NCBI GenBank assembly: GCA_963965975.1
Contig: OZ014413.1
Location: 10,646,601 to 10,710,600, forward strand
Length of the DNA stretch: 64,000 bases
Origin: Xestospongia bergquistia
Taxonomy: Eukaryota; Porifera; Demospongiae; Haplosclerida; Petrosiidae
Reading direction: 5' to 3'
Made by a program: the position numbers and the translations under genes. The notes under the pieces were generated by a model that was not told the origin of the DNA, ran no database searches, and saw only the letters and a list, made by a program, of their open reading frames with translations. This document shows, piece by piece, positions 266 through 58,000 of the stretch. Within the stretch, counting starts at the first letter, position 1; every line of letters begins with the position of its first letter.

Positions 266-828
266 GAGACACTGGAAGTGTTAAGTGGACTAGTGATAGA
301 GTTATACTTACTTCATCTACTGTGGCAGAATGTAAAGAAGTGATACATCAATTAAAGAGACAACAACACACAACATGGAGGATTATACTCAACTCATTAG
401 CTCCTCAAAGTTTACTAACAGTATTAACTGATATTAATGAATGTCAAGTGAAGAGACTTTATATAAGATACACTCGTTTTGATATTAATTGTGTCAGTCA
501 GCTATCACAAGTAATAACTTATAACAGAACAATGGAGGAACTATATCTTGACTCCTCACCTCTCTTACCAAATACTTACCACTTACTAACAACAGCTCTA
601 ACTGGTAATAAAATAATCAAGGTATTACGCTTGTATTATGACGATAACATTACTGATAATGATATAACTCATCTCTCTCTTGTCATCATTCACAATAACA
701 CATTACAATATCTATATTTCAATGAATGTCCTAAAATTACTGAAATTGGTATAGAACAATTACAAAATGTTGTTGTTAAAAGTAATAGTTTGAAGAGTTT
801 GTATATTAATAGTAATTATCTCCGTTAA
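266..828 (+). CDS. G0: 3' terminal LRR exon of a Death/CARD-like/LRR receptor (gene starts upstream of window)
   Basis: The exon begins after a TTATTATAG acceptor at 265 and ends at TAA 826-828. It encodes about 187 residues starting RDTGSVKW. Roughly six ribonuclease-inhibitor-type leucine-rich repeats are visible, with strands around KRLYI, EELYL, KVLRL, QYLYF and KSLYI. The entry phase and the surrounding intron match the last exon of the complete paralogs G1 and G3-G6, so the Death, CARD-like and coiled-coil exons should lie to the left of the window. Bases 1-265 match the last intron of those paralogs. In the family this exon would form the ligand- or partner-binding surface; that role is inferred from the LRR fold. 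The exon has no internal stop. Whether the whole gene is intact cannot be judged here. Confidence 0.8.
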
Positions 829-1500
829 TTATTAGTTATTTTTGTACTATTGTTGTATTTTTTACTAAAAATAAATTATTTCAAATTCCAATAAGTCAAT
901 TATTAGTTAAATACTTTAGCTTCCAGTTCTTTGTCTTCTAACAAAGTTAACGATTTTTATAATTCACTTCTCGAGAAAAACTCAACTTCTCTACTTGACA
1001 ATTGACCACACCTACATTAATTAATAATAAAAGCTTCAATATTGTTATTTCTAATATTTACAAATAGAATTATAACAAACAAACTAGACTAAATTGTACA
1101 TTAATAGTCCTCTAGTTAGTAGCTATATAAAATTAAATATTATCGCTACGTCTAATACCACTAATTACTACTGTTAATAAAAAATCCATTAATTAAAGCC
1201 AATTAATTTATCAAATCACCTAAAAACTTATTTCCTACACACACAGTTCACTTAACAAATTAATATTATATTTAATAACACGTTCTATTTAATAATACAC
1301 TCACTTTTAACAATTCCATTAAAGTACTGATCCATACAACATTAGAAGATTTCTTGATAACATTACAACTATTAACTTACTACTACTATTATTATTATTG
1401 TTATTATTATTATTATTATCATTTTATAGAACAATATTACAATTATAAAAATGAGATGAATAGTAAGTGACAGAAGTAAGAGGGGTATTGAACTGAGGGC
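829..1500. repeat. 3' flank shared by the array units, non-coding
   Basis: After the stop comes AT-rich sequence that recurs nearly unchanged after G1 (14061-14585), G3 (28077-28565) and G6 (58001-58560). It includes the landmarks GTAGCTATATAAAATTAAA and TTATCGCTACGTCTAATAC. A short TTA/TTG trinucleotide tract lies at about 1381-1420. I see no gene or RNA in it. It is useful as a marker of segmental duplication boundaries. Confidence 0.7.
870..875 (+). terminator. Polyadenylation signal AATAAA of G0
   Basis: AATAAA lies about 45 bases after the stop. The same context (CTAAAAATAAATTATTT) follows the stop codons of G1, G3 and G6. In G4 and G5 the site reads AATAGA. Confidence 0.55.
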
Positions 1501-8802: not shown

Positions 8803-10732
8803 ATGGCAGTAGTGTCCACATATTTCGATCAGTTTTTGAATGGAAAACCAACTGTTCACGAGTTATACGAACATGTCAGAGTTGGTACTAACTGGTACAA
8901 ACTTGGTGTACTTCTCAAGTTAGACATCAAAAAGTTAAATGATATCAGATCACTAAATGAAGATAGTGATTTCAAATCATTAAAGATGTTTGAATTGTGG
9001 CTGAGTAGTAAACCTAATGCTACAAGAAGAGAGATTATAGAGACACTAAAGAAGGCATCCATTAGTGAGAATACTATTGCTGAACAATACAAAGAGACAT
9101 TACCAGAAAGTTAGTGTAAATTAAGAATTAAGATAACCTGATTAATTTTTTTTATGTTTATTTATTCACTAGTTCAAAAAGAGGTTGTTACTTCAATACT
9201 ACAGAATCAAACAAAATGTCTCTCACAGCTCATTCTTCCTGCAAAGATTGTTCATATTTTGTGTACAGAGGGAGTCATCTCTAAGGATACATTTGATGAA
9301 TTGGAGAGATCAGGAAGTGTGCTAACTGATGATTCATTGAGAGCACTCTCTAGTACAGTATCTGAAGACTCAAACAAGTTAAGAGTCTTCGCTAGTGTCT
9401 TGTTACAATCTAAAGATACAATACATGTAGGACAAGATATACTCAAAGATTATAGTAAGTTTATTATTTTATAGATTCATAGTGTTGAAATTTTGTAATA
9501 GATGAAAACTTTCCTCAAGTACTAATGTGGCCAAGTCAATCAGGTATGTAATTTAATGAAATCATTCTATATACATGTAAATATAGTATTACCAATAGAT
9601 ACTAGTGCTTCAGATACTCCTGAACTGGACACTATATCAACTTCTACTAATCAAAGTTAGTTTTCTCAACACTTGTAAATAATGAATTACATATACTTCT
9701 ATTAGGTACTATAACAGAGTTGTATCTTCCACCAACTTTTCAATATGATTTCGATCAAATGAGAATAAAATTAGGAAGTCTTGTTCATAATGTGGCACCT
9801 CTTATTAAATCTGCTGTTATGAATTCACCTCCTTCATCTGAACCAAGTCTTCCACAGCAGGAGATTTCTTTTCCACTGAAAGATCTCAAGAAGTACCTTA
9901 AAAGGTGTTTTCGAGAGCTAAAACCTCAGTTATCAGTAGCAAAATCATTTGATGATGTTATGGAGATTGTGGAAGAAAAATGTACCATAATCAACATTGC
10001 CTGCTTAGAGGCTGTTATCAATCACTACAACATTCAAGATGCCAAACCTCATGTCACAACTTATAAATCAGCTGTTGAAAAATTCTGTGAAGAGGTTAAA
10101 CTCAATGTGTGTGAAAGTCAGAACTTTGTGATCGGCTCATCCTCTCTTCTCAAATGTGACACCGTTGAGTTTGTCATGGAATGGGATGCTGATGAATACT
10201 GTCTTAGCCAAATCAGAGTTCTGTTACAAAAAGCCTTCCAAGATATGGCTAAGAAGGTCCAAGTTAGAGTGATAAAGAAAGGCAATTCCATCATTGTAAC
10301 CTGTTATGCTCCACGCCATATAATGGATATTCTACGAATGGAAGCAGAAAAACATCTTGACCTATTGATTAAGGAGGGATTACTCAAATTAACTATGGGC
10401 TACCATATTATATGGGATGTATATACTAGAGATAAGGTAAGAGCAATAATAGTACTAGACAATATTATGTATATGTTGATATATGTATAGGAGGTGAAGG
10501 GTCTAGTGGAAATGGTGAGAGCTCTTGAAGAGAAGGTTGTATTAAAGAGAAAGAAGAAGGATGAGGAAATATCTGAGCTGAAAGGTGAACATTAATACAA
10601 TAAATATGATATAAAGGATCACTTTATTCCTTATTTAAAACATTAGTTTGTTCTAGTAGTATGGACAGAGAACAACAAGATCAGTCATCAACTGATACTC
10701 CATTAGGTAAGTAACTTAAAGTATATAATGTA

Positions 10733-10781
<49 letters not shown>

Positions 10782-13700
10782 CAATACAAACAGAAAAGCT
10801 AAAATTATTGGATGAGGAAAATACATTAAAGATTCATATTAAACAAGAAGGTATATGCGTACTTAAGGACATTGTCTTTCTGTCCATTAATCACTCCATC
10901 CCTTTGTGTATTTATCTATTCATTCCTTTAAATTATACATGTCACAGAAACTACTTCACTTAATTTAGCACTGACTATGAGTGATCAAGAAGAAGATCCA
11001 ACTCTCGAGCAAGTTGATTTCATGGACCAATCATTACCTTATGAAATAAAGGAGGAACCAACCCAACATGTATCATTGTATTATACAGAAAAGTTTAGTA
11101 CCAGTCGTGGCATAAAACGAAAGAGTGACTTCAACTTAGAAGATGAAATACCATCAAAGAAACAATGTGAGTACATAACAAGTTATATCATAAACAATGA
11201 ACTATAGGAACTAATAATAACTATATTTGTATATTTTATTATTACTAGCACACAGTGTGATGAGAGAAGAACCACAATCAACTAACGCTTTATCAGGTAC
11301 ATGTACATTAATTGTGATATAACTATGTACCTAATGTAAACAGAGAAGATGAAACTGTTGGATAGAATGAGCAAGGCAAAGACCTTAGAGATTGAAAAGT
11401 TAACCAGATATAAAGAAAGTGAGCTATAGTATTGTTAGTAGTACATACCATATATGATTATGTTCTATAGCTACTGATAAAGTATTAGTAGAGAAACAAA
11501 AAGAGATTGAGATGCTACAAGAAAAGATAACTTTGTTAAATTTACAGTTAATGGAGAGAGAAAAAAAGATTAGTCAGTTGATGGAGAACATGAAAGGTAA
11601 ACAATTACTTGATATTCTATTATATCATATAATCTGTTTAGTGCTACAGTCTCAGGTGATAAAGTTTCATGATCCAGAAGCGCATGAGCTTGAGCGTGAT
11701 CAGATTCAACATGATCTTCAGTTTCGTCAAAATTTTGAGGAGGTACTACCTAGCCAACAACAGCTATCATTAGACGACAAACTAACTCAAGAACCTGATG
11801 ACAGAGTGGATGATACTTCTAAGTTAACTTCATTAGATCATGAAACAGAAGACATCACTAGTCAAAGTAAGATATAGAAATTTATATGTTATATAGGAGA
11901 ACACTGTGATTGGTCAGTTTTTAATAAAATTATTGTATAAAGAGACAAAATCATTCATTCTCTATTAAAACAATGTTGTAGTTAGTGATGGTACCTACAT
12001 TGATGTAGCCTCAAATTAAGGCTTGTAATGAGATGCCAGGAAAGTTAAAAAATGTGGACTGTTTAGAAGATGCTTTCAATGTTTGAGTACAGTACTCAGC
12101 TGTTTAAGAGATGGAATGTCGAAGAAAATATATCATTCTTTATAGACATTATTTATACACCAATATGATATTAATTTATTATACATGTATTGTAAATGAA
12201 AGAGATTATAATGTTATTGGAGATGATTAGTTTACTAAATCTTCAATTGACAGAGAAAGATAAGGTCATCACTCACTTAACATTAAAAGATACAGATGAG
12301 AAGGACAGCCAACAGAAATCATTAGATGATGAAGAACTACCAAGTAAGTTGTCATTATAAGTTTATTAATGTTTAAAGAACTGTGGTTATTAACAGCACA
12401 TTCCTATAACACATGATAAACTTAGATGATTTCAACAACTGAATGATATTAATTCAATGGACACATAGTTTATTACATTAGTTACTTACCTGTTGTTGAC
12501 ATTGGGTATATAAGAGCACATATCAAGTAATGGATTCATCACTGATAGTTCAGTAACAATAAAAAATTCCAACTATCAAATATTTCTCAGTAATCTATAG
12601 TTGATCTCTATGATGATCTCTGTCATAATAGTACCTACACATGTACTAATTAATGTAGTCCATGTTATTGTTTACTTCAAGATATCTTAAGAGCTTGAGT
12701 ATAATGTGGAAACTAGGACAACATATTCAACACTATACATTGTATGATTGGGTTATTTAAAGTCAATTTGTAAAATACAAATGGAGGAGATTCCTGTACC
12801 TCAACTATTTAGTGCTATATGTATGCCAATTACAAATCATAATCATAATTGATTACACAATCAATTATATTTTTGCTATAATTGTAATTGTAATCAACTT
12901 TCCAGAAACAATATAATATAATAAGTAATCAGACAAAGTTCCAACTTCACTGTCAATATGATATTTTCAAATAGTTATTGTTTTAAAAATATTGAATTAT
13001 ATTATAAATTATGCATTATAATATCATATCACAACACTAAATATATTGTTTTATTACATTATAACATTTGTAAAGTAAAGAGAAATATCAATCAGTTGAT
13101 ATAAACACACAAAAGACAAGTCAAAACTCTGCTACCAGACATCATAATGATTTATGCTTGAGTGGTACTTCTTGTAAATCTTGACTAGTGATATAACTGA
13201 GTCATCCTCATTGACGTCTATCTGACAGTTCAGTACCTTGTGTGTTCGTCTCAGTAGTAGATAGCGACGTCCCCATTCTCATCTAATATAGTAAATTATT
13301 AGTATAACACTCAGTAAATTTAAGTCCGTTTTGTAGAATCCGTTCATCTCCGTATATCGTTGTTATAGTAACCTAACACTAGTAATGGCGTCGTCTTCTT
13401 CGTTAGGTCTTGACAATCGTAGTTGAGCATGTTAGAGTGTGTGTATAACTATTGTTGTGTGTGTAAAATATTATATAGTAACTATGTTTTATTATAGGAG
13501 ACACTGGAAGTGTTAAGTGGACTAGTTATAGTGTTATACTTACTTCATCTACTGTGGCACAATGTAAAGAAGTGATACATCAATTAAAGAGACAACAACA
13601 TACAACATGGAGGATTGTACTCAAGTCATTATCTCCTCAAAGTTTACTAACACTATTAACTGATATTAATGAATGTCAAGTGAGGAGACTTGATATAGTG

Positions 13701-14060
13701 AACACTCATTTTGATAGTAAATGTGTCAGTCAACTATCACAAGTAGTAACTTATAACAAAACAATGGAGTACCTAGATCTTCGCTTCTCACCTCTCTTAC
13801 CAAATACTTACCACTTACTAACAACCGCTCTAACTGGTAATAAAATAATCAAGAGATTATGGTTGTTTAATGACACTAACATTACTGATAATGATATCCC
13901 TCATCTCTCTAATCTCATCTTTAACAATAACACATTACAACGACTATATCTCTATGATTGTCCTAAAATTACTGAATTTGGTGAACAACAATTACAAAAT
14001 GTTGTTGTTAAAAATAATAGTTTGGAGATATTGTATGTTAATGGTAATTATCTCCGTTAA
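8803..14060 (+). CDS. G1: Death / CARD-like / coiled-coil / LRR receptor-like protein, complete frame (~999 aa)
   Basis: My exon model is 8803-9109, 9173-9454, 9502-9543, 9599-9655, 9706-10436, 10491-10584, 10647-10706, 10794-10850, 10969-11166, 11249-11296, 11344-11418, 11471-11866, 12254-12343, 13498-14060. It totals 3000 bases in one open frame. Exon 1 is a Death domain (WYKLGVLLKLD, then FKSLKMFELWLSSKPNATRR). Exon 2 is a CARD-like helical domain (ILPAKIVHILCTEGVISKDT, SVLLQSKDT). Exon 5 is a ~240-residue region found in all members, with an FRELKPQLSVAKSFDDVMEI helix and a C-terminal GNSIIVTCYAPRHIMDIL segment. Exons 6-13 are short, charged and coiled-coil-like. The last exon holds about six LRRs. 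The likely role is an intracellular recognition and signalling receptor acting through Death-fold contacts; this is inferred from domains. No GxxxxGK[ST] P-loop was seen, so it is not a standard NLR. The start is chosen because the same ATG context is kept in G5 and G6. Confidence 0.8.
10735..10779. repeat. (TA)n microsatellite in a G1 intron
   Basis: An uninterrupted TA run of about 45 bases lies just upstream of the small coiled-coil exon 8. It is absent from the homologous introns of G2 and G3. Confidence 0.95.
11597..11652 (+). other. Exitron-like in-frame segment inside coiled-coil exon 12 of G1
   Basis: The segment starts GTAAAC and ends CTACAG, so it looks like a 56-bp intron. It nevertheless stays open in G1, G3, G4, G5 and G6, encoding GKQLLDILLYHIICLVLQ. 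Because 56 is not a multiple of three, removing it shifts the frame to a quick stop and would give an LRR-less protein. I therefore model it as coding, with optional splicing possible. Confidence 0.45.
12817..12920. repeat. Truncated copy of the AATTGTAAT MITE family (G1 last intron)
   Basis: The sequence CATAATTGATTACA, then TTTTTGCTATAATTGTAATT, then CAACTTTCCAGAAACAATATA matches the left half of the elements at 39976-40280 and 55782-56266. The CAGGGTTGGGG terminus is missing here. Confidence 0.5.
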
Positions 14061-17202: not shown

Positions 17203-19087
17203 ATCATTGTAACCTGTTATGCTCCACGACATATAATGGATATTCTACAAATGGAAGCAGAAAAACATCTTGACCTATTGATTAAGGAGGGATTACTTAA
17301 ACTAACTATGGGCTACCATATTATATGGGATGTATATACTAGAGATAAGGTAAGAGCAATAATAGTACTAGACAATATTATGTATATGTTGATATATGTA
17401 AAGGAGGTGAAGGGTCTAGTGGAAATGGTGAGACCTCTTGAAGAGAAGATTGTATTAAAGAGAAAGAAAAAGGATAAAAAAATGTCTGAGCTGAAATCTT
17501 CTCTAAATGGTAAACGTTAATACAATAAGTAAGATATAAAGGATCATTTTATTTAAAACATTAGTTTATACCAGTAGTATGGACAGAGAACAACAAGACC
17601 AGTCATCAACTGACACTCCATTAGGTAAGTAACTTAAAGTATAATGTAGTGATATATGACAATACAAACAGAAAAGCTAAAATTATTGGATAAGGAAAAG
17701 ACATTAAAGATTCAAGAAGGTATATATGCATACATAAGGACATTGTTTGTTTGTCCATTACTCCATTCTTTGTGTATCTATGTATTCATTGCTTTAAAGT
17801 ATACATGTCACAGAAACTACTTCTCTTAATTTAGCATTGACTATGAATGATCTAGAAGAAGCTTCAACTCTTGAGCAAGTTGATTTCATGCACCAATCAT
17901 TACCTTATAAAATAAAGGAGGAACCAACCCAACATGTACCAATGTATTATATGGAAAGGTGTAGTACCAGTAGTGGCATAATATCAGGTGGAATACGATG
18001 AACAACGAACTATAGGAACTAACAATAACTATATTTGTATATTTTATTATTACTAGTACACAGTGTGGAGAGAGTAGGACCACAAGACCAATCATCAACT
18101 GACACTATATCAGGTGAAATTATTAATAAACACACAACAGACAAGATATGAAGACAGTGTTGCTTGCATGTAAATCAACATAGCTAGTCAGTAATATATA
18201 TGTGTGTATGATTCATCCTTACTGATGACTATCTAATAGCTAGTGCTCAGTATCCTTTGTACTTTATGGATATGTCCCTATCCTATCTCACATCATTGAA
18301 AATCGTGCATCAACATAATTTGGCTTTAATTAATACAGTAAATTATTTGTATATCACACAGTAAACTTAAGTCCAATGGGTAGAGTCTGTTCATCTCCAT
18401 ATATTCTTGCTACAGTAATCTAACATTAGTAATGGTATCTTCTTTGTTAGGCCTTTATAGTCATACAAGCATGTTATAGTGTGTGTATAGCTATTGTTGT
18501 GTGTGTAAAATATTATATAGTAACTATGTTTTATTATAGGAGACACTGGAAGTGTTAAGTGGTACAGTGATAGTGTTATACTTACTTCATCTACTGTGGC
18601 GGAATGTAAAGAAGTGATACATCAACTAAAGAGATGACAACACACAACATGGAGTATCAAAATTAAGTCGTTATCTTCTCAAAGTTTATTAACACTATTA
18701 ACTGATATTAATGAATGTCAAGTGAGGAGTCTTTATATAGTGAACACTCATTTTGATAGTAACTGTGTCAATCAACTAATACAAGTAGCAGCTTATAACA
18801 AAACAATAGATGTCTTATATCTTTCTTCCTCACCTCTCTTACCAAATACTTACCACTTACTAACAACAGCTCTAAGTAATAATAATATACTTGAGAGATT
18901 ATACTTGTTTAATGATAATAAAATTAGTAACAAGGACATACCATATATCTATCATCTCATTGCTACTAATACAACATTACAATTTCTGTTTCTCTATTGT
19001 CCTAATATTACTAAATTTGTTATGCAAAATGTTTGTGTTAAAAACAAAAGTTTGGATGTGTTTATAAATGGTAATAGACTCTGTTAA
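17203..19087 (+). pseudogene. G2: truncated and mutated receptor paralog
   Basis: The copy begins in the middle of exon 5 (ATTGTAACCTGTTATGCTCC), joined to an RFC3 exon. It continues through coiled-coil exon 6, whose acceptor TATAG has become TAAAG, and then through exons resembling 7 (to about 17625), 8 (about 17660-17719) and 9 (17836-18000, ending at an in-frame TGA). An exon 10 lies near 18058-18112. Exons 11-13 are deleted. The LRR exon (18540-19087) has TGA at 18635-18637. Death and CARD-like exons are missing. The open reading frame 17155-17520 is a read-through of exons 5 and 6. This is a clear pseudogene, although its LRR strands still differ from its relatives at exposed positions. 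Confidence 0.85.
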
Positions 19088-39958: not shown

Positions 39959-42311
39959 TATATTATAAAATATGTATCAGGGTTGGGACCGATTACATGT
40001 ATAATTACAATTATAATCAATTACAATCAATAATTGTAATTGTAATCAGCTTTCCAGAAACAATATAATCATATATATATAGAGAGAGAGAGAGAGACAG
40101 GTGCTATTTATCTGATGGGCTGTTTGAAAAACTAATGTTTATCTAATGTAATACTAAGTTATTTGACGTTGCATAATCATGGCTCTATAATCATAATTAT
40201 AATCATGCTTTTTTCCCAATATCCATAACTGTGATCACTTTGCATAATCATTGTATAATGTAATTGACCCCAACCCTGATATATAGATATACTATAGTCT
40301 ATTTGTGTTCACCTTGCTACCAGTAATTAATAGTGGGTGTAAGTAGTATACATAATACACACTTAATTATTTATGGTGTTATTCTTTGAGTTATCACATG
40401 AAAATAAAAGATCACATGATGTGTGTGTCTGTGTGTGTGGAGTTGATTTTATTTTCTTATGAGAACAAATTTATTCTCAAATCTGTAAGTTAGAATTATA
40501 TCATTAATTTCTAAAAATATTAATAAAATGTACAATAGTTTATCTAACAATGGATCACAGGAGCAGCTTATCTTCCACTATTACTTGAGAGCCACAGGAT
40601 ATACATAAGATAGCTAAGAAACCTGGGAAGGAGGTTAGATTGATGTCACAAATCAAATATGTAATAGAAAGGTAAGATAGTTCTTCGAGAAAAGGAAGCT
40701 CATTTAAGACAGAGAGAGGATCATAGAACATACAATAGAGGTTACAAGTGTATCAGTAATAAGTGTGCGTGTCATTCATAACAAATACATTTGTCAAGAG
40801 GATAAATTACTGTTAAACAATACATAACTTATAGGGTACATGCTAATCCAGACTCTTTTAATAAAGGAAGTAATACAACATACTGTTCATAATTTTTATA
40901 TAATATCCCACTTTGACTACTGTATTAGCTAAATCAAAAGAGGATAGAGTTTTTAGAGTTGGTAGGTTTTGTCTATGGAGGATTCTGTGAGAGTTGTGGT
41001 TTTCATACAATAAAAGGAACAGTACACAATACATAATATGAACAATGTAATGTACTGGAACAAACTTGGAAATAAAAAGTAAACAAAGATATGACAACAA
41101 GACAATAATCTATACTGATAAAAGATGAGTAAATACACATCACTGTAGAGAACATAGTTAAGTAGATGTTGATGACTAAAACTCAATGTTAATAGGATAT
41201 TGTCAAATAAATGTTGTTTCAAAAATAATGAAATATATACATTATAAATTACATAACTTACATTATAATAATATTATCATATCACAACACTATGTTTTAT
41301 TACATTATTACATTTTTAAAGTAAAGAGAAATTTCAATCAGTTGATATATATAAACAAAAACTCTTACCATGCAGGCATCATGATGATTTATGCTTGAGT
41401 GTTGCTTCTTGTAGATCATCTTGACTAGTGATATAACTGAATATCTTCACTGATGTCTATCTGACAGTTCAGTACCTTGTGTGCCTGTCTCAGTAGTAGA
41501 TAGTGACGTCCCCATTCTGGCTAAAATCATCTAATACAGTAAATCATTGGTATAACACTCAGTAATTTTAAGTTTGTTTTGTAGAATCCGTCCATCTCCG
41601 TAGTTTTGTACATCGTTGTCATAGTAACCTAACCTAACATAGCATCATCTTCTTCATTAGGTCTTGACAATAGTAGTTGAGCATGTTAGAGTGTGTGTAT
41701 AGCTATTGTTGTGTGTGTAAAATATTATATAGTAACTATGTTTTATTATAGGATACACTGGAAGTGTAAAGTGGACTAGTGATAGAGTTACACTTACTTC
41801 ATCTACTGTGGCAGAATGTAAAGAAGTGATACATCAATTAAAGAGACAACAACATACAACATGGAGTATTCAACTCGACAGATTATCTCCTCAAAGTTTA
41901 CTAACACTATTAACTGATATTAATGAATGTCAAGTGAGGAGACTTGAGATATGGAACACTCATTTTGATAGTAAATGTGTCAGTCAACTATCACAATTAG
42001 TAACTTATAACAAAACAATGGAGGACCTATATCTTCTCTCGTCACCTCTCTTACCAAATACTTACCACTTACTAACAACAGCTGTAGCTAATAATAAAAT
42101 AATCAAGGGATTATACTTGTATGATGACACTAGCATTACTGATAATGATATACCTCATCTCTCTCATCTCATCATTAACAATAACACATTACAAGATCTA
42201 TATCTTGATAAATGTCCTAAAATTAGTAAATTTGGTAAACAACAATTACAAAATGTTGTTAAAAATAATAATTTGAAGACATTATATGTTAATGGTAATA
42301 AACTCCCTTAA
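34849..42311 (+). CDS. G4: Death / CARD-like / coiled-coil / LRR receptor-like protein, complete frame (~894 aa)
   Basis: The model is 34849-35164, 35219-35491, 35561-35608, 35834-35887, 36185-36858, 36914-37019, 37075-37140, 37579-37635, 37683-37757, 37813-38178, 38803-38892, 41752-42311. It totals 2685 bases in one frame. The Death domain has WYKFGVLLQLDTTKL and MFELWLSSKPKAMRR. The CARD-like exon has LSVKLVQMLYTEKVISNETF. Exon 5 ends GNSIIVTCYAPQHIMDILQM. Coiled coils and six LRRs follow. Compared with G1, exon 8 is lost (acceptor mutated) and exon 9 is deleted, leaving only its GTGAGT edge near 37511. Both losses keep the frame because those exons are phase 1-1. The LRR exon lacks one Val codon present in G5. 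The 2.9-kb last intron holds a MITE and a TA tract. The usual 5' flank is replaced by a transposon end. Role inferred as for G1. Confidence 0.78.
39914..39955. repeat. (TA)n microsatellite in the last G4 intron
   Basis: A TA run of about 40 bases lies just before a MITE. Confidence 0.95.
39976..40280. mobile_element. AATTGTAAT MITE, full-length copy in G4
   Basis: The left end is ATCAGGGTTGGGACCGATTA and the right end is TAATTGACCCCAACCCTGAT, its imperfect reverse complement. The interior is very AT-rich with repeated TAATTGTAATTG-like units and an (AG)n stretch. Relatives lie at 12817, 26146, 47898 and 55782, nearly always in the last intron before the LRR exon. Confidence 0.7.
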
Positions 42312-42389
42312 TTATTAGTTACTTTTTGTACTATTGTTGTTGTAAAAATAGATTATTTCAAATTCCAATAAGTCAATTATTAGTGATGT

Positions 42390-44648
42390 AGTAGTAGTAC
42401 AAGAATTGATGGTGATAATCCAAGTACATGTACATATATTGTAGTATCATTCATTCAATATACTATTTAGACAAGTATTTTTTGTGGTCAATTGTATACA
42501 ATAACATTAATTATAATAATTTGTGGATCACATGATTGACTTGATGTAGTAGTAGATATTGGATCATGTCTCTCTTTCTCACTCTTACTCTCTATTACAA
42601 AGTCATTCTTGGTATAGTATTACAATTGTTTCAACAGTTTACTGGTATGAATGTTATTATGTGAGTTAATGAATGTATGGATCAATGGATGATCGGAGAG
42701 ACAGACAAAGATAGTTAGTCAAGTTAATAACTAGTTATTAATTTGTAGGTATTATTCAACAGCAATTTTCTGCAGTATAAAAGTCTCTAGCTATGTAGCT
42801 ACAGCCATAGTGGGTGTGGTCAATTTCTTAACCTTTGCAACAGTATTCTTAGTAGATAAATTATCTTAACAACTAAAGGGTTAAACATTAATACATTACA
42901 TAGGTTGGTCGTAAATTCCTCTTATTACTGGAAACATTTGGTACGTTTGTGACTATTTTAATAGCTGGACTGTTGATATATTTCTTCCAAGTTGATCAAG
43001 GTCGGTTATGTTGTGGTCATCTTGGTTGTCATCTTTGTTGCCAGTTTTGCATTCAGTTGGGGGTAAGTAAGATCCAGTTCTATGATAACTATATTGATAC
43101 TGAAATGAGTCTCAGAACAGGACCTTCATGGTATAAGAATGGGTCTGCATTATATTCTCAGACCCTGCAGGTCTGGTACAGAAACAGGTCTATTTAGTCT
43201 CAGACTCAGACCTGATATAGAAATGAGTCTATATATTCTCAGACCCATACCTAGTCTTAGAACAAGACTATTACTATGATATCTCTTAATCATTTAGTCT
43301 TGTAGCGTGGATTGTTACAAGTGAAATATTTCCTCTCTCTGTACGAGATGAGCATATCCACTATCACCTCATATCCTCTATATACTAATTTGTACATGTA
43401 TATTAATAGTAGGATAATGTCAATGTTACCTTTAAATGATATTTTATGTAATTCTCATGAGAAAACAAAAAATGATATCCTCTCCTGTCTTATCTGATTA
43501 TAGGAATTGCTGTTTCCATAACAACTTTTGGCAATTGGATTGGCAATTTTATTATTGCCATGGTAACTCCTCTTCTCTTGGGATCAGTATTAGGAACAGC
43601 TGGAACATTTTTTATCCTCTCAATATTTTTATTTGCTGCCTTTCACTTTGTATTACTGACCTTACCAGAGACTAAAGGAGAGAGTTTAGAGAAAATTAAT
43701 CAACTCTTTATGAAACCATGTCTTGAAAGAATCAACCTTTCCTATCATTTGAGGTGAGTGTACTTTGACCTTTGACCTCAGTAAGTTCAATTACGTAGTC
43801 TTAATATTTATATATATTTTCAATGACAATAGTTATATTTATATATTATTAACTATATATTGAACATGTGCCAGTCATGTGATAATAACAATATTCATTG
43901 ATAATGATATAATTTTATTGGACACTGTGTATCATTTTCATCCCGTCTCCAGAAAATTAAGTAAAGAGGATACCAAACCTTTCTCCTTTTATTATTAGAG
44001 TGTGCTAGACTGGAAATGAGTATAGAATGTGAATTATATAATTAAAAGACGTTACTAGTAGTTTTAAAGATAAGTACATTAATTAAAATTAAGAGGTAGT
44101 TATTAACTAGTTATTAATAATAAATTATATTCATAAATTATATGTACTTTGTATAGATTGGGTTGTCCCTGGAGATATTGTGATAATCATAATGTAATAT
44201 ATAATGTTAATGTTGGATTAGTAACAGAGAAAGAAGAGTAAGTTATTACATGTCATACATACACATATTATAATATATTGTAACATTAGAATTGACCGGT
44301 CTTCTTATAAATGTCAAATTTATAACATTGATTATAATGATATTATATTATATCAGAAGATCCTAATACTAAAATATACAAACAATCTCTTAGTCACTTT
44401 ATTTGAAAATAACAATCTTCAAGAGTATCTTGTACAATGTTGTTAAACTATTAAACTAATGTTAACTGTTTATATCCCTTGCATTGGTATGATATTAGTT
44501 CTTTTAATATTAATATAATAATACAATTAATTTACTTTATTTATTATATTTATTAGAGAGGACAAACTTATTGATAATGAAGTGACTTCAGAATCTATTT
44601 TATCTTCTAATGATATTAGCTATAATATGGGTGGAGTTAACTTTTAAT
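42390..44648 (+). pseudogene. T2: decayed 3' fragment of the sugar transporter
   Basis: The fragment starts within the intron that corresponds to 4560 in T1, directly after the G4 3' flank. It keeps exons for VILGIVLQLFQQFTGMNVIM, YYSTAIFCSIKVSSYVATAI, VGRKFLLLLETFGTFV, IFPLSV and TPLLLGSVLGTAGTFFILSI, and the cytosolic tail. Lesions include a lost donor after LVDK (AAATTATC instead of AAGGTATG), a 14-base deletion after VDQG, a donor GT to AT change after the FPLSV exon, and an altered C terminus. It has no promoter or first half. It preserves the empty target site of the MULE at 44367-44374. Confidence 0.8.
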
Positions 44649-44892: not shown

Positions 44893-47800
44893 ATGGCAGT
44901 AGTGTCCACATATTTTGATCAGTTTTTGAATGGAAAACCAACTGTTCACGAGTTATACGAACATGTCAGAGTTGGTACTAACTGGCACAAACTTGGTGTT
45001 CTTCTCAAGTTAGATATTACTAAGTTAAATGATATCAGATCACTAAATGAAGATAGTGATTTCAAATCATTAAAGATGTTTGAATTGTGGCTGAGTAGTA
45101 AACCTAATGCTACAAGAAGAGAGATTATTGAAGCACTAAAGAAGGCAGCCATTAGTGAGAATGCTATTGCTAAACAATACAAAGAGACATTACAAGAAAG
45201 TAAGTGTAAATTAAGAATTAAGTTAGCCCCATTAAATTTTTTTATGTTTGTTTGAACAATAGTTCAAAAAGAGGTTGTTACTTCAATACTACAGAAACAT
45301 ACTAAGTGTCTTTCACTACTCATTCTTCCTGCAAAGATAGTTGGTATTTTGTACACAGAGGGAGTCATCTCTAAGGATACATTTGATGAACTGGAGGGAT
45401 CAGGAGGTTTGCGAACTGATCATTCATTGAGAGCACTGTCTAATACAGTATCTGAAGATCCTAACAAGCTAAGAATCTTAGCTAGTGTCTTGTTACAATC
45501 AGAGGAGACAGTACATGTAGGACAAGTTATACTCAAAGAGTACAGTAAGTAGTTTATTTTTATAAGTCTTTATATTAAAATTTTGTAGATGAACAGTTTC
45601 CTCAAGAAATACCATTACAGTCAAGTCAACCAGGTATGTAACATAATTAGTTCATTGTAAAGTATGCATAATATTACAAACAGATACTAATACTCTCAAT
45701 GCTTCATTGAACACTCCCCTAACTCCAACTTCACAAGGTTAGTCTTTTACTTCAATGTTTTGAATTAAATGTATTTTTCTATTAGGTGCTATAACAGAGC
45801 TATATCTTCCACCTACTTATGAATATAGCTTTGATCAGATGAGAGCAACATTTGGAAAACTCATTCACACAGTAGCACCTCTTATTAAATCTGCTCTTAT
45901 GTCTTTCCCTTCCTTACCAGAACCACCTTTACTGGAAAATTGCTCACCACTAGAAGAGCTTAAAATTTTTCTTCAAAGATGTTTTGAAGAGCTTAAACCT
46001 CAACTGACTATTGCTGAGTCATTTAATGATGTTATGGATATTGTGCAGAAAAAGTGTACAGTAATCAATGTTGCTTGTTTAGAGACTGTCGTTGATCACT
46101 ACAATATTGAAGAAGCCAAGGCTCATATCAAAGCTTACAAATCTGCAGTTGATAAATTTTGTGAGGATGTCAAACTTAGTGTCTGCAAGGATAAAGATTT
46201 CATGTCAAGTCCATCATCTCTTCTCAAATGTGAGACTGTTGAATTTGTTCTGGAATGGGAACCTCATAACAACGCTCTCAACCAGATCAGAGTTTTGTTA
46301 CGAAAAGCTTTTCAAGATATTGCTAAATTTGTCCGAGTGAGATATATCAAGGAAGGGAACTCCATCATCATTACCTGCTATGCTCCACAAAATATCATGG
46401 ATCTCTTACTAGTAGAAGCACAAAAGAATCTTCACATATTAATAAAGATGGGAGTAATCAAGTTAACCATAGCCTTCCATACTATATGGGATGAACGTAG
46501 TAGAGATAAAGTAAGACATGAGTTCAATACTAGACAATAATGTGTGTGTGTTGATATATAAAGGAGATTAGAGGTTTGGTGAATGAGGTGAGAGTTCTTG
46601 AAGAGAAGGTTGTTTCACAGAGAAAGGAGAAGGATAAGGAAATAATGGAGCTAAAATCTTCCCTGAAAGGTAAGAATTATAGTTCAGTACATAATTATAA
46701 TATAGCTCTTCTTTATTACACGAATTATAGTTTATACTAGTATGGATAGAGAAAGACCACAAGACCAATCATCAACTGATTCTCCATTAGGTATGTATCC
46801 TGAGGTATATATATGTAATGTAAATTGAAAAGCTAAAGAAGGTTTACATAAGGACATCATCTCTTGATGTATCCATCCATTCATTGCTTTAAAGTATATG
46901 ATTTATAGAAACTACTACTTTACTCAATTTAGCACTGACTATGAAGGATCTGGAAGAAAATCCAACTCTTGAGGAAGTTGATTTCATGCAGCAATCATTG
47001 TCTCATACGCTAATGGAGGAACCTACCCAACATGTACCAATGTACTATATGGCAACTTTTAGTACTAGTGATAATACTAAACAAAAAGGTAAGTACAACT
47101 TAAAAGATGAAACACCATCAAAGAAATCATGTGAGTATAACAAGTTATGTCATAAACAATTAACTATAGGAACTAGTACTAACTATATTTGTATATTTTA
47201 TTATTACTAGCACACAGTATGGAGAGAGAAGAACCACAAGATCAATCATTAACTGACACTTTATCAGGTACATGTACATTAATTGAGATATAACTATGTA
47301 CCTAATGTAAACAGAGAAGATGAAACTATTAGATAGAATGAGTAAAGCAAAGACCTTAGAGATAGAGACGTTAACCAGACATAAAGAAAGTGAGCTATAG
47401 TATTGTTAGTAGTACATACCATATATGGTTATGTTCTATAGCTACTGATAAAGCATTAGTAGAGAAACAAGAAGAGATCGAGATGCTACAAGAAAAGATA
47501 ACATTGTTAACTTTACAGTTAATGGAGAGAGAAGAAAAGATTAGTCAGTTGATGGAGAACATGAAAGGTAAACAATTACTTGATATTCTATTATATCAGA
47601 TAATCTGTTTAGTTCTACAGTCTCAGGTGATAAAGTTCCGTGATCCAGAAGCACATGAGCTTTTGTGTGATCAGATTCAACATGATCTTCAGTTAAATCA
47701 AAATTTAGAGGAGGTACTACCTAGCCAACAACAGCTATCATCAGATGACAAACTAGATGACAGAGTGGATGAGTTAACTTCATCAGATCATGAAACAGAA

Positions 47801-49650
47801 GACATCACTAGTCAAAGTAAGATATAGAAATTTATATGTTATATAGGAGAGCAATTTGATTGGTTAGCCAAATGCAATATATATACTATATATATGTATC
47901 ATGGTTGGGGTCGATTACAATCGTAATCATAATTGATTACAATCAATTATATTTTTGCTCTAATTGTAATGGTAATCAACTTTCCAGAAACAATGTAATT
48001 ATAATCAGACAAAGTAATTACTGTAATCACAAGTGATTAGATCAATTACAGTATCCTTTGTAAGTAATATATGGAACAAGTACATTTTGTCTGTATTAGT
48101 ATTTACTGGTCTATATGAAATGATGCATGAAAGAACATGTGATTAGATTGATTACACAATACTTGTTTGCAGCTGAATGTCCAAAACCTATATATATAGA
48201 GACAGGTTTATCTGATGAGCTTTTATATACAGTGACAATATCCCACTTTGACTACTGTATTAGCTAAATTAAAATAGGATGGAGTTTTTAGAGTTGATAG
48301 GTTTTGTCTATGGAGGATTCTATGAGAGTTGTGGTTTTCATATAATAAAAGGAACAGTACATAATACATAATATGAACAATGTTAATGTACTGGAACAAA
48401 CTTGGAAATAAAAAGTAAACAAAGATATGACAACAAGACAATAATCTATACTGATGAAAGATGAGTAAATACACATCACTGTAGAGAACATAGTTAGGTA
48501 GATGTTGATGACTAAAACTCAATGTTAATAGGATATTGTCAAATAAATGTTGTTTCAAAAATAATGAAATATATACATTATAAATTACATAACTTACATT
48601 ATAATAATATTATCATATCACAACACTATGTTTTATTACATTACTACATTTTTAAAGTAAAGAGAAATTTCAATCAGTTGATATATATAAACAAAAACTC
48701 TTACCATGCAGGCATCATGATGATTTATGCTTGAGTGTTGCTTCTTGTAGATCATCTTGACTAGTGATATAACTGAATATCTTCACTGATGTCTATCTGA
48801 CAGTTCAGTACCTTGTGTGCCTGTCTCAGTAGTAGATAGTGACGTCCCCATTCTGGCTAAAATCATCTAATACAGTAAATCTTTGGTATAACACTCAGTA
48901 ATTTTAAGTTTGTTTTGTAGAATCCGTCCATCTCCGTAGTTTGTACCATCGTTGTTATAGTAACCTAACCTAACATAGCATCATCTTCTTCGTTAGGTCT
49001 TGACAATAGTAGTTGAGCATGTTAGAGTGTGTGTATAGCTATTGTTGTGTGTGTAAAATATTATATAGTAACTATGTTTTATTATAGGAGACACTGGAAG
49101 TGTTAAGTGGACTAGTGATAGAGTTACACTTACTTCATCTACTGTGGCAGAATGTAAAGAAGTGATACATCAATTAAAGAGACAACAACATACAACATGG
49201 AGTATTCAACTCGACAGATTATCTCCTCAAAGTTTACTAACACTATTAACTGATATTAATGAATGTCAAGTGAGGAGACTTGAGATATGGAACACTCATT
49301 TTGATAGTAAATGTGTCAGTCAACTATCACAAGTAGTAACTTATAACAAAACAATGGAGGACCTATATCTTCTCTCGTCACCTCTCTTACCAAATACTTA
49401 CCACTTACTAACAACAGCTGTAGCTAATAATAAAATAATCAAGGGATTATACTTGTATGATGACACTAGCATTACTGATAATGATATACCTCATCTCTCT
49501 CATCTCATCATTAACAATAACACATTACAAGATCTATATCTTGATAAATGTCCTAAAATTAGTAAATTTGGTAAACAACAATTACAAAATGTTGTTGTTA
49601 AAAATAATAATTTGAAGACATTATATGTTAATGGTAATAAACTCCCTTAA
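44893..49650 (+). CDS. G5: Death / CARD-like / coiled-coil / LRR receptor-like protein, complete frame (~948 aa)
   Basis: The model is 44893-45199, 45263-45544, 45589-45633, 45684-45737, 45786-46510, 46564-46669, 46731-46790, 46933-47130, 47211-47267, 47315-47389, 47442-47816, 49088-49650. It totals 2847 bases in one frame. Domains run in the G1 order: Death (WHKLGVLLKLDITKLND), CARD-like (GVISKDTFDELEGSGGL), the exon 5 region (FEELKPQLTIAESFNDVMDI, GNSIIITCYAPQNIMDLL), coiled coils (EKQEEIEMLQEKITLLTLQL) and six LRRs. Exon 13 of G1 is deleted. The LRR exon is nearly identical to that of G4, differing by a Leu/Val change and one Val codon, as expected for a very recent duplication. The extended reading frame upstream of the chosen ATG is not conserved in G6, so ATG 44893 is preferred. 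Confidence 0.8.
47898..48190. repeat. AATTGTAAT MITE family, incomplete copy in the last G5 intron
   Basis: It starts ATCATGGTTGGGGTCGATTA and resembles the left part of the full copy at 55782. The right terminus is missing. Confidence 0.5.
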
Positions 49651-52818: not shown

Positions 52819-55800
52819 ATGGCAGTAGTGTCCACGTATTTCGATCAATTTTTGAATGGAAAACCAACTGTTCACGAGTTATACGAACATGTCAGAGTTG
52901 GTACTAACTGGCACAAACTTGGTGTACTTCTCAAGTTAGATATTACTAAGTTAAATGATATCAGATCACTAAATGAAGATAGTGATTTCAAATCATTAAA
53001 GATGTTTGAATTATTACTGAGTAGTAAACCCAATACTACAAGAAGAGAGATTATTGAAACGCTAAAAAAGCCAGCCATTAGTGAGAATGCTATTGCTGAA
53101 CAATACAGAGATACATTACGAGACAGTGAGTGTAAATAGAATTATTTTGAGGGTTTTTTGTTTCTTTTTTTTAGATTTATTTCAAAAAGAGATTGCTACT
53201 CTATTGCTGCAAAAACACTCTGAGTGTCTCTCGCAGCTCATTCTTCCAACAAAGATAGTTCGTATGTTGTATACAGAGGAAGTCATCTCTATGGAGATAC
53301 TTAATGAAATGGAGAGATCTGGAGGTTTGCGAACTGATCATTCATTAAGAGCACTGTCTAATACAGTATCTGAAGATCCTAACAAGCTAAGAATTTTAAC
53401 TAATGTCTTGTTACAATCAGAGGAGACAGTACATGTAGGACAAGTTATACTCAAAGAGTACAGTAAGTAGTTTATTTTTATAAATCTTTGTATTAAAATT
53501 TTGTAGATGAACAATTTCCTCAAGAAGTACCAATACAGTCAAGTCAACCAGGTATGTAACATAATTAGGTCATTGTAAAGTATGCATAATATTACAAACA
53601 GATACTAATACTTTCAATGCTTCATTGAACACTCTCCTAACTCCAACTTCACAAGGTTAGTTTTTTACTTCAATGTTTTGAATTAAATGTATTTTTCTAT
53701 TAGGTGCTATAACAGAGCTATATCTTCCACCTACTTATGAATATAGCTTTGATCAGATGAGAGCAACATTTGGAAAACTCATTCATACAGTAGCACCTCT
53801 TATTAAATCTGCTCTCATGTCTTTGGCTTCCATACCAGAACCACCTTTACTGGAAAATTGCTCACCACTAGAAGAGCTTAAAATTTTTCTTCAAAGATGT
53901 TTTGAAGAGCTTAAACCTCAACTGACTATTGCTGAGTCATTTAATGATGTTATGGATATTGTGCAGAAAAAGTGTACAGTAATCAATGTTGCTTGTTTAG
54001 AGACTGTCATCGATCACTACAATATTGAAGAAGCCAAAGTTCATATCAAAGCTTACAAATCTGCAGTTGATAAATTTTGTGAGGATGTCAAACTTAGTGT
54101 CTGCAAGGATAAAGATTTCATGTCAAGTCCATCATCTCTTCTCAAATGTGAGACTGTTGAATTTGTTCTGGAATGGGAACCTCATAACAACGCTCTCAAC
54201 CAGATCAGAGTTTTGTTACGAAAAGCTTTTCAAGATATTGCTAAATTTGTCCGAGTGAGATTTATCAAGGAAGGGAACTCCATCATCATTACCTGCTATG
54301 CTCCACAAAATATCATGGATCTCTTACTAGTAAAAGCACAAAAGAATCTTCACATATTAATAAAGATGGGAGTAATCAAGTTAACCATAGCCTTCCATAC
54401 TATATGGGATGAACGTAGTAGAGATAAAGTAAGACATGAGTTCAATACTAGACAATAATGTGTGTGTGATATATAAAGGAGATTAGAGGTTTGGTGAATG
54501 AGGTGAGAGTTCTTGAAGAGAAGGTTGTTTCACAGAGAAAAGAGAAGGATGAGGAAATAATGGAGCTAAAATCTTCCCTGAAAGGTAAGAATTATAGCTC
54601 AATACATAATTATAATATGACTCCTGTTTATTACACAAATTATAGTTTATACTAGTATTGATAGAGAAAGACCAATCATCAACTGATTCTCCATTAGGTA
54701 TGTATTCTGAGGTATATATACGTAATGTAAATTGAAAAGCTAAAGAAGGTTTACGTAAGGACATCATCTCTTGATGTATCCATCCATTCATTGCTTTAAA
54801 GTATATGATTTATAGAAACTACTACTTTACTCAATTTAGCACTGACTATGAAGGATCCAGAAAAAGATCCAACTCTTGAGGAAGCTGATTTCATGCAGCA
54901 ATCATTGCCTCATGCACTAATGGAGGAACCTACCCAACATGTACCAATGTACTATATGGCAACTTTTAGTACTAGTGATAATACTAAACAAAAAGGTAAG
55001 TACAACTTAAAAGATGAAACTATGTGAGTATAACAAGTTATGTCATAAACAATTAACTATAGGAACTAACAATAACTACATGTGTATATTTTATTATTAC
55101 TAGCACACAGTATGATGAGAGAAGAACCACAATTAACTGACACTTTATCAGGTACATGTACATTAATTGAGATATAACTATGTACCTAATGTAAATAGAG
55201 AAGATGAAACTATTAGATAGAATGAGTAAGGCAAAGACCTTAGAGATAGAGAAGTTAACCAGACATAAAGAAAGTGAGCTATAGTACTGTCAGTAGTAAA
55301 TACCATATAGGGTTATGTTCTGTAGCTACTGATAAAGTACTAATAGAGAAACAAGAAGAGATTGAGATGCTACAAGAAAAGATAACATTGTTAACTTTAC
55401 AGTTAATGGAGAGAGAAGAAAAGATTAGTCAGTTGATGGAGAACATGAAAGGTAAACAATTACTTGATATTCTATTATATCAGATAATCTGTTTAGTTCT
55501 ACAGTCTCAGGTGATAAAGTTCCGTGATCCAGAAGCACATGAGCTTTTGCGTGATCAGATTCAACATGATCTTCAGTTAAATCAAAATTTAGAGGAGGTA
55601 CTACCTAGCCAACAACAGCTATCATCAGATGACAAACTAGATGACAGAGTGGATGAGTTAACTTCATCAGATCATGAAACAGCAGACATCACTAGTCAAA
55701 GTAAGATATAGAAATTTATATCTTATATAGGAGAGCAATTTGATTGGTTAGCCACATGCCATATACATGCTATATATATGTATCATGGTTGAGGTCAATT

Positions 55801-58000
55801 ACAAATCTAATCATAATTGATTACAATCAATTACATTTTTGCTATTATTGTAATTGTAATCAACTTTCCAGAAACAATATAATAAGTAATCAGACAAAGT
55901 AATTACTGTAATCACAAGTGATTACAGTAATGACAGTATCTTTTGTAAGTAGTATATGGAACAAGTACATGTTGTCTGTATTAGCACTTGGTGGTCTATA
56001 TTTATGAAATGATGTATGAAAGAACATGTGATTATATTGATTACACATTACTTGTTTGCAGCTGAATGTCCAAAGTCTATATATATAGACAGGTGCTGTT
56101 TGAAAAACTGATGTTTATCCAATGTAATACTAAGTTATTTGATGACGTAGTTTAATTGCTTAATGATCGCTCTGTAATTATAATCATAATCATGCTTTTT
56201 TCCCAATAACTGTAACTGTAATCACTGTATTATCATAATGGTCATGTAATTGACCCCAACCCTGATATGTAGATATACTATAGTCTATTTGTGTTCACCT
56301 TACCACCAGTAATTAGTAGTGGGTGTAAGTAGTATACATAATACAAACTTAAATGTTTGTGGTGTTATTCTTTGAGTTATCACATGTAAATAAAAGATCA
56401 CATGATGTGTGTGTGTGGAGAGTTGATTTTCTTTTCTTGTGAGAACAAATTTATTGGCAAATCTGTAAGTTAGAATAATATCATTAGTTTATAAAAAAAA
56501 TTAATAAAATGTACAATACTTTATCTAACAATGGATCAAAGGAGCATACATTTCTCAAGAGAGTAAATTACTGACTCCTGTTAAACAATACACAACATAT
56601 AGGGTATATGTGAATCCAGACTCTTTTAATAAAGGAAGTAATACAATATACTGTTCATAGCTTTTATATACAGTGACAATATCCCACTTTGACTACTGTA
56701 TTAAAAGTTGATAGAGTTTTTAGAGTTGGTAGGTTTGTCTATGGAGGATTCTGTGGTAGTTGGGGATTTCATATAACAGTACATAATACATAATATGAAC
56801 AATGTAATGTACTGGAACATACTTGGAAATGATACATAAACTAAAAGATGACATACACACATGTTCCAGTTTCAATGTTAATAGGATATTGTCAAATAAT
56901 TATTATTGTTTCAAAAATATTGAAATACATTATAAATTACATAACTTACTTTATAATATCATATCACAACTCTAAATATATTGTTTTAGTACGTTATGAC
57001 ATCTTTAAAGTAAAGAGAAATGTCAATATAAACAGACAAAAGACAAGTCAAATAAAAACTCTGTTACCAGACGTGATGATTCATGCTTAAGTGTTGCTTC
57101 TTAATTGTGAACCATCTTGACTAGTAGTGATATGACTGAGTCGTTCTCACTGACGTCTATCTGACAGTACAGTACTCTCTGTGCCCCCGTAAGTAAATAG
57201 TGATGTCCCCATCCTGGCATCTAATTCAGTAAATTATTAGTATAACACTCAGTAAATTTAAGTCTGTTTTATAGAATCCGTTCATCTCCGTACATCGTTG
57301 TTATAGTAACCTAACACTAGTACGTCTTCTTCGTTAGGTCTTGACAATGGTAGTTGAGCATGTTATAGTGTGTGTATAGCTATTGTTGTGTGTGTAAAAT
57401 ATTATATAGTAACTATGTTTTATTATAGGAGACACTGGAAGTTTTAAGTGGACTAGTGATAGAGTTAAACTTACTTCATCTACTGTGGCAGAATGTAAAG
57501 AAGTGATACATCAATTAAAGAGACAACAACATACAACATGGGAGATTGAACTTAACAGATTATCTCCTCAAAGTTTACTAACAGTATTAACTGATATTAA
57601 TGAATGTCAAGTGTGGAGACTTGTTATAGTGAACACTCATTTTGATATTAACTGTGTCAGTCAACTATCACAAGTAGTAACTTATAACAAAACAATGAAG
57701 TACCTATATCTTCTCTCCTCACCTCTCTTACCAAATACTTACCACTTACTAACAACAGCTGTAGCTGGTAATAAAGTAATCAAGGTATTATACTTGTTTA
57801 ATGACACTAGCATTACTGATAATGATATACCTCATCTCTCTCATCTCATCATTAACAATAACACATTACAAGAACTAGTTCTTGGTAAATGTCCTAAAAT
57901 TTTTAAATTTAGTGAACAAAAATTACAAAATTTTTTTGTTAAAAATAATAGCTTGAAGAGATTGTATGTTAATGGTAATAGACTCCATTATTGTTATTAG
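52819..58000 (+). CDS. G6: Death / CARD-like / coiled-coil / LRR receptor-like protein, frame complete if exon 7 is skipped (~916 aa)
   Basis: The model is 52819-53125, 53175-53462, 53507-53551, 53602-53655, 53704-54428, 54479-54584, 54840-54995, 55104-55151, 55199-55273, 55326-55700, 57429-58000. It totals 2751 bases. Exon 7 (54646 onward) has lost eight bases relative to G5 near 54671 and would introduce a stop, but skipping it is phase-neutral. Exon 9 also lost 14 bases near its end. The frame is kept if the earlier donor AAAAGGTAAG (after 54995) is used. If neither rescue is used the gene is dead. Domains are as in G5, with ELLLSSKPNTTRR where others have ELWLSSKPNATRR, changing a usually conserved Death-domain Trp. 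The LRR exon ends HYCY, three codons longer than its relatives, with an N-terminal strand of WEIELNRL. Confidence 0.65.
55782..56266. mobile_element. AATTGTAAT MITE, full-length copy in the last G6 intron
   Basis: The left end is ATCATGGTTGAGGTCAATTA and the right end is TAATTGACCCCAACCCTGAT. It is 180 bp longer than the G4 copy because of interior sequence shared with the G3 and G5 copies. The remaining intron, 56267-57428, shows no other feature. Confidence 0.7.

Follow-up and report, generated by a model that had tools for sequence, protein, structure and literature searches.

Selection on exposed codons and exchange of exons in a tandem family of predicted Death-LRR receptors from a sponge

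The locus and its genes

The stretch of DNA analyzed here (the window) comprises 64,000 nucleotides of contig OZ014413.1 of the sponge Xestospongia bergquistia, C3:10646601-10710600 in our numbering of contigs. It holds seven leucine-rich-repeat (LRR) exons of a single family, all on the + strand; six are open and one, in gene G2, is a pseudogene. A sequence-only reading of the window had noted that the exposed positions of the LRR strands (the x positions of the xLxLx motif, here called x sites) are hypervariable on a near-constant scaffold. This pattern is real and larger than was noted, being found in a genome-wide family of which 64 copies were analyzed. The x residues of the six LRR strands are under strong positive selection, and the exon evolves in concert through exchange between loci. 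Our explanation, which we hold to be probable, is that the window carries part of a tandem family of Death-LRR receptors whose LRR exon is a recognition cassette shaped by selection and exchange together.

A TTATAG acceptor precedes the LRR exons at 266, 13498, 18540, 27514, 41752, 49088 and 57429 (G0 to G6 in that order). The LRR exon of G0 (266..828) has an open frame; the 5' half of this gene lies left of the window. The 5' half of G1, with its Death-domain and middle-domain exons (8803..10490; frames 8773-9114 and 9651-10490), has an ATG at 8803 and is 80% identical in DNA to that of G5, the only copy on which the Pfam Death match was scored. The LRR exon of G1 (13498..14060), also open, is the source of the AlphaFold model described below. 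G2 (LRR exon 18540..19075) had been listed among the near-identical paralogs; its strand strings are indeed there, but an intact copy is not, for the exon has an in-frame TGA and deletions. The 5' half of G3 (Death-domain region and middle domain, 21654..23319; frame 22669-23319) is placed by DNA homology to G1 and G4, and that of G4 (34867..36873; frame 36157-36873) by DNA homology to G3. The LRR exons of G3 (27514..28076) and G4 (41752..42311, copy L022) are open, as is that of G5 (49088..49650, copy L014). In G6, the middle-domain exon lies at 53682..54458 and the LRR exon (copy L020) at 57429..58000.

A hand-built model of G5 joins seven upstream exons to the LRR exon, the last of the eight, in a single open frame of 735 codons; splicing is predicted, and two extra candidate exons are out of frame with the model. 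The predicted order is a Death domain (exon 1, 44893..45199; PF00531, E 1.9e-7 on the exon, above the cut-off, and 1.8e-6 on the joined protein), a small domain without Pfam match (exon 2, 45263..45544), a middle domain likewise without Pfam match (45786..46510), a coiled coil called by eye (exons at 46564..46669 and 47442..47567, the second in phase 1 at both ends) and the LRR. If this splicing is right, the members of the family are Death-domain proteins. A genome-wide search with the middle-domain exon gave at least 150 matches (the best 150 of 517 candidates all matched). No NACHT domain was found by a Pfam scan of the joined G5 5' half, nor inside the window among the 95 rows of a genome search (103 of 156 candidates scored), which returned 94 matches above the cut-off elsewhere in the genome. 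By the presence of NACHT or NB-ARC, the family would not class as nucleotide-binding LRR receptors (NLRs). WD40 was likewise absent from the Pfam matches of the G5 5' half and of the LRR exons scanned.

What kind of LRR is this? Pfam LRR models gave only sub-cut-off scores on the two window exons scanned, and the caps LRRNT and LRRCT gave no Pfam match in these two exons (E up to 1) or in five related proteins (E up to 10). The AlphaFold model of the G1 exon has a mean predicted local distance difference test score (pLDDT) of 92.9, with strands at 37-42, 61-67, 91-95, 119-123, 148-152 and 177-180. Its Foldseek matches in the PDB include NLRP3 (rank 1), tropomodulin-type proteins, ribonuclease inhibitor (rank 12) and NLRP1. 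Modeled secondary structure and these matches point to an LRR of ribonuclease-inhibitor type, a strand/helix horseshoe with LxL strands. The x sites fall on the strands of the model, and from the known LRR fold, rather than from measured model coordinates, they are predicted to line the concave face, or binding groove.

Variability at the strand positions

The genome searched is a 146-Mb assembly of 21 contigs, in which LRR-exon arrays occur on C3 and on two others, C8 and C4, with near-identical duplicates among the copies. All of the best 150 of 379 candidates for the LRR exon matched when scored. The set analyzed consists of 64 stop-free copies (L001-L064; 56-100% identity to G0). Left out were at least six copies in the same range with stops or truncation, shorter fragments, and L065-L070, which are too distant. 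The codon alignment has 186 sites, site 1 being the D of DTGSVKW. The 18 x sites were defined by the LxL positions of the motif and not by entropy, though they were chosen after the aligned proteins had been seen. One of them, site 181, is a conserved Asn, which counts against the xLxLx rule; it was kept in the pN/pS and rank tests and dropped later, leaving 17 sites.

Mean entropy is 2.62 bits at x sites, against 0.39 at the interleaved Leu/Ile, 0.66 in helices and 0.74 in the rest of the LRR. Single x sites mostly exceed 2 bits and reach 3.3, Tyr makes up 24% of x residues, and the 64 copies show 62 distinct 17-residue combinations. Entropy is higher at the 18 motif sites than at the remaining 168 (Mann-Whitney p = 1e-10), and the motif sites include 14 of the 17 most variable positions. 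Variation is not confined to them: the sites above 1.5 bits number 32, of which 17 are x sites and the remaining 15 lie in loops (nine), helices (four) and the pre-LRR part (two).

The strand strings quoted in the sequence-only reading were found in the translations of the LRR exons, and the codons GAC, CGC, CAC and CTC that it gave for one site do occur together, at aligned site 95. Its description of the introns as nearly unchanged was overstated, since an exon together with its flanks has about 86-92% identity between most of the open copies in the window; G4 and G5 reach 98%.

Positive selection at the exposed codons

The ratio of nonsynonymous to silent differences per site (pN/pS) over the 64 copies is 2.8 at the 18 x sites (bootstrap 2.3-3.4) and 0.78 in the rest of the exon. 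A Goldman-Yang (GY) codon model, run on 57 of the copies with 17 x sites and a scaffold tree, estimated omega (the corresponding rate ratio) at 6.86 for x sites and 0.84 elsewhere. With omega freed, the log likelihood was -2658.7, and with omega at x sites held at 1 it was -2726.3, a cost of 67.6 log units (twice the difference, 135). Given exchange, the tree behind these estimates is uncertain, and IQ-TREE warned of more parameters than sites; pairwise pN/pS needs no tree. In the middle exon pN/pS is 0.37-0.49 for all ten pairs of window genes. The diversifying selection first suspected from the strand strings is thus upheld by the codon model, by recurrence of the pattern in another family and in a further group of proteins (below), and by the position of the sites on the model strands. 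Neither a dN/dS of 1 or less nor a spread of variation over the buried scaffold, the two outcomes named beforehand as contrary, was found.

Might the exposed residues be drifting freely on a scaffold that alone is constrained? The inward Leu/Ile are the most conserved class, as such relaxed constraint would have it. Drift, however, cannot make nonsynonymous change exceed silent change, and helix sites, many of which are exposed in this fold, are far less variable than x sites. A strong hidden constraint on silent sites would be the remaining way to such ratios, but in close pairs the flanks diverge about as much as silent sites do, which tells against a special constraint behind the low silent divergence of the exon. 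(This flank comparison used the 264 of 2016 pairs with sufficient flank, which share genes and are not independent; a higher divergence in the upstream 400 bp is probably an artefact of forced alignment of gappy introns.) We regard relaxed constraint as highly improbable.

Exchange of LRR exons between loci

The sequence-only reading missed a second engine that is visible beside selection, namely the exchange of LRR exons. Among the five window genes compared, the silent divergence (pS) of the middle exon is 0.52-0.59 in eight of ten pairs (0.10 and 0.026 in the other two, the latter being G5 and G6), and that of the LRR exon is 0.009-0.054 in all ten. The 5' halves and the LRR exons therefore differ in age. 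The 3' half of G4 (40902..42900) is 98.5% identical to 48237-50235 of G5 over 2005 columns, with the same x residues, and the Death and middle regions of the two genes are 73-74% identical (88% at 37504-38198). Conversely, G5 and G6 are recent duplicates by their middle exons (2.6% silent divergence) yet differ at 12 of 17 x residues.

Smaller pieces also move. L073 and L093, two members of the second family 77 kb apart, show zero substitutions over about 3.88 kb outside one block (and one 2-bp gap); within the block, 105 bp covering codons 66-100, 10 codons are changed by 17 bases and the amino acid is altered in all 10. The public protein P0273 equals L093 along its length, and P0248 differs from the L093 block at 2 of 35 residues. 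In L009/L014 every exon difference lies within codons 76-96. Such a long run without substitution at 77 kb is what one would see if haplotypes or noisy reads had been stacked as false tandem copies, but an assembly artefact would not concentrate changes on structural positions, and in one public contig set all 12 listed proteins are the same as copies in this genome at the sites compared (though that contig may derive from the same reads). We find this explanation scarcely credible.

Selection with birth-and-death duplication only, and no exchange between loci, would account for the arrays on three contigs and their near-identical duplicates. It does not account for window genes whose 5' and 3' halves are of unlike age, or for a lone replaced block in 3.9 kb otherwise free of substitutions, and we judge it very unlikely. 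Exchange of blocks between loci is the simplest reading of the mosaic copies. The LRR exon, then, evolves in concert by exchange of pieces that range in size from some 100 bp up to 2 kb or more, and the 5' halves keep their own older histories.

Two narrower forms of exchange were considered and set aside. Whole-strand cassettes as a standing pattern are not borne out, there being no clear linkage within strands, although one such event is seen (L073/L093). A guarded conversion that homogenizes the scaffold only between x codons is not favored, because the Leu/Ile codons in the strands are about as conserved at silent positions as others in the closest pairs, though the next class of pairs shows 0.065 vs 0.026 (counts below).

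The tempo of change

Several observations weigh against selection and exchange as a full account. At flank divergences as low as 1.5-3%, x divergence is already near maximal; in L025/L033 the flanks differ at 38 of 2454 positions and the x sites at 16 of 17. A simulation of single-step selection, even with omega at 200, gives an amino-acid difference of 0.59-0.69 (at 4-fold divergence of 0.008-0.020), and the observed x value is higher, 0.74 at a silent divergence of about 0.011; the same simulation predicts third-base change of 0.11-0.32, and 2/53 was observed (non-independent). This misfit argues against slow stepwise divergence of each copy alone. The x codons show no linkage with one another or very little of it, with a joint-identity enrichment (60 of the 64 copies) of 1.01 within strands and 1.04-1.08 at 6 bp, and r2 within 30 bp at 1.18 +- 0.08 of its chance value in the C3 group. 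Exchange of 100-bp blocks should leave more. Since exon linkage is generally low in the C3 group, we take this as weak evidence either way; the contrast between exon and intron linkage may reflect a star-like history. Finally, an exact donor for either version of the L073/L093 block was absent among the genome matches listed, the best being 95% and 92% identical (best 40 of 144 and best 40 of 140 candidates).

Further measures of tempo are these. The pN at x sites is nearly independent of relatedness, 0.44 in the closest bin (scaffold silent divergence <0.03) and 0.51 in the most distant. Of 19 pairs with less than 3% flank divergence, among which genes are shared, 15 differ at 9-16 of the 17 x residues and the other four at none or one; one of the latter sort is L014/L022 (G5 and G4), with 31 of 2245 flank positions but no x site different. 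No pair of the 64 copies falls at 2-7 of 17. These two-peaked counts invite the reading of a strict burst, which is weakened by L073/L093 (5 of 24) and by the small number of independent young pairs. In the second family third-base change at x sites is higher (48/187), as stepwise change would give.

A germline mutator dedicated to the x codons (whether templated or codon-targeted), which leaves selection to do no more than filter what it makes, would meet the poor fit of the closest bin to single-step selection and the missing donor. It would also suit near pairs with multi-base changes in x codons (GAC to CTC in L009/L014; the 10 codons of L073/L093) and the tendency of third bases in x codons to be constant for a given site, whereas bases 1 and 2 vary; in the closest bin, base 1 differs in 45% of x codons and base 2 in 48%. 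In that bin, however, 4-fold third bases differ at 2/108 at x sites vs 49/4505 elsewhere, and silent differences in the Leu/Ile codons between x codons are little raised over those elsewhere (11/789 vs 19/2021; next bin 127/1963 vs 125/4846). Over whole groups the x third base in 4-fold codons is more variable than third bases elsewhere (0.199 vs 0.100 for all 64 copies, 0.044 vs 0.0056 on C8, 0.054 vs 0.0485 on C3 and 0.098 vs 0.021 in the second family); some residue changes force a third-base change. The eight x codons changed in L071/L081 are altered by single bases only, and there is no Pro among the 1083 x codons in the window family, while the second family has 2, so products are filtered. 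Pairs with a damaged copy serve as controls, of which few exist. L060, whose C-terminus is damaged, differs from L052 at 1 of 17 x sites and at 16 codons besides, the damage itself accounting for six of these; G2, the pseudogene, is 99.35% identical to L061 and has the same x residues. Diversity-generating retroelements follow an adenine-specific template rule, to which the data are unfit, as several x sites keep A at base 3.

The closest pairs thus give no support to the targeted diversification process that the sequence-only reading had offered beside selection, and we have little faith in such a mutator. Somewhat broader is the idea that an early-branching animal has a dedicated germline diversifier rewriting LRR contact codons one block at a time, whether through targeted mutation or through copies taken from a pool across haplotypes. 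We think this improbable too; if true, it would give a repertoire of at least 150 LRR exons like that of the variable lymphocyte receptors (VLRs) of lampreys, yet germline-encoded.

A second family and public relatives

The variability of x sites recurs in a second LRR family, spread over about 1.2 Mb (C4:8.43-9.63 Mb), with eight repeats and about 40% identity to the first. Of 34 loci sampled, 29 were analyzed, five having failed the start-motif filter. Its pN/pS is 3.6 at x sites and 1.28 in the rest, or 0.76 once 14 further variable sites are removed. In a few places, judged by eye, its LRR exons have middle-domain exons 2-3 kb upstream. It recurs also among public proteins, which were collected in three listings (the best 120 of 211, of 297 and of 539). 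A group of 57, among the 120 relatives of the window family that were listed, stands at least 13% away in the scaffold, probably comes from a second species, and has site entropies that follow ours (rho 0.78). Among related public proteins, x sites are 14 of the 24 most variable positions in 57 near proteins and 16 of 24 in 54 far ones.

The distant protein P0100 matches L024 at 15 of 17 x residues despite 20 of 148 scaffold differences, so that some copies keep their surface. Many public proteins (P0001-P0120, P0241-P0360) carry precomputed Pfam assignments PF27087 and PF27089; our own scan of five returned neither. In another public contig set with 10 listed proteins, three equal copies here, one is near (1 of 17 x residues) and six are without close counterpart; one of the six, searched against the genome, had a best match of 87%. 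We take this mix of shared and unshared copies to reflect a further haplotype, or a further individual, whose gene content is different.

Proposed function

The genes are predicted to encode cytoplasmic receptors of Death domain, domains without Pfam match, coiled coil and ribonuclease-inhibitor-type LRR, with no NACHT found, expanded in tandem. The LRR exon would be their recognition cassette and the x surface would bind ligand. Selection would favor new specificities for molecules of pathogens or symbionts or for non-self, signaling would go through the Death domain, and donors for exchange may lie partly on other haplotypes, which would differ in gene content. The residues of the putative binding groove are extremely varied apparently because copies swap the binding exon and selection favors new surfaces.

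The presumed ligand-facing codons of a germline family come close to maximal diversity on an almost constant scaffold, and a single genome shows this at least two times. Because dozens of the copies are near-identical, the contributions of selection, exchange and fresh mutation at contact codons can each be measured apart from the others, which has a bearing on how organisms whose receptors do not rearrange achieve specificity.

Other elements in the window and genome

DNA resembling a sugar-transporter gene (by eye) lies beside LRR exons at 4658-6572, 42458-44374 and 49797-51700, with 92% identity; because it recurs there, it travels with the tandem unit. At 6773-8168 an open reading frame (ORF) with a FLYWCH zinc finger (PF04500, E 1.5e-12) comes first and after it an overlapping ORF, in a different frame, that has no Pfam match; we take the two to be a decayed transposon of Mutator-like (MULE) type. 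The ORF at 59002-59835 matches DDE_Tnp_1_7 (PF13843, E 1.2e-19) and is presumably piggyBac-like. Outside the window, C9:1502757-1523415 holds a tandem cluster of cathepsin-like (PF00112) exons, one of which reads CGSCYAFSAVGALEGA.

Comparison with known systems

Plant NLRs carry an NB-ARC domain; none was seen in the window family, and the likeness is convergent at most. Highly variable NLRs (hvNLRs) of plants are defined by no fewer than 10 positions with an entropy over 1.5 bits in near-allelic series, mostly in the LRR (PMC8226289). Here 32 positions exceed that entropy, counted on paralogs and not on a near-allelic series.

The LRR exons of the family are complete and open in the genome as assembled, and this speaks against their having to be put together in the VLR manner. 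VLRs are assembled somatically from germline cassettes. They have LRRNT and LRRCT caps, to which the exons tested here gave no match. What is shared is an LRR scaffold with a variable concave surface (PMC3900441).

Expansions of sponge NLRs have a counterpart in the many NACHT matches of this genome, but no NACHT exon was found for the window family. In Amphimedon such an expansion was reportedly described by Yuen in 2014, who is also said to have discussed selection in the LRRs of sponge NLRs. Dysidea avara has a large Death/NACHT/LRR repertoire in one genome, and in the text of that paper the term 'positive selection' has 0 occurrences (PMC12909245). Judged by title and the start of the abstract, none of the papers listed in searches on sponge LRR families and selection describes the window family. 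The NLR-C family of zebrafish runs to hundreds of immune genes, and individual fish differ strongly in how many copies they have; its FISNA-NACHT and B30.2 architecture is unlike that of the window family (PMC11192531).

A close parallel in mode comes from the NWD genes het-d and het-e of Podospora anserina, whose WD40 repeats are in concerted evolution with positively selected surface codons (PMC1805685). In both systems recognition units are homogenized across loci, a few exposed codons are positively selected, and the selected codons flank a conserved one (PMC1805685). Podospora has WD40 with NACHT; the window family has an LRR exon with a Death domain, no NACHT found, and more copies.

As het-d and het-e form an allorecognition system (PMC1805685), could rare surfaces in the sponge be favored as marks of self, and not for antimicrobial defense? 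The public contigs with copies identical to ones in this genome hold unlike copies as well, as this would have it. The Death domain, on the other side, suggests a cytoplasmic protein, and many copies per genome fit many ligands better than one self label, so that we consider allorecognition unlikely. The window family has the Podospora-like mode of a homogenized scaffold with selected exposed codons, and it works in the manner of het-d/het-e and apparently of the plant hvNLRs, though it belongs to neither.

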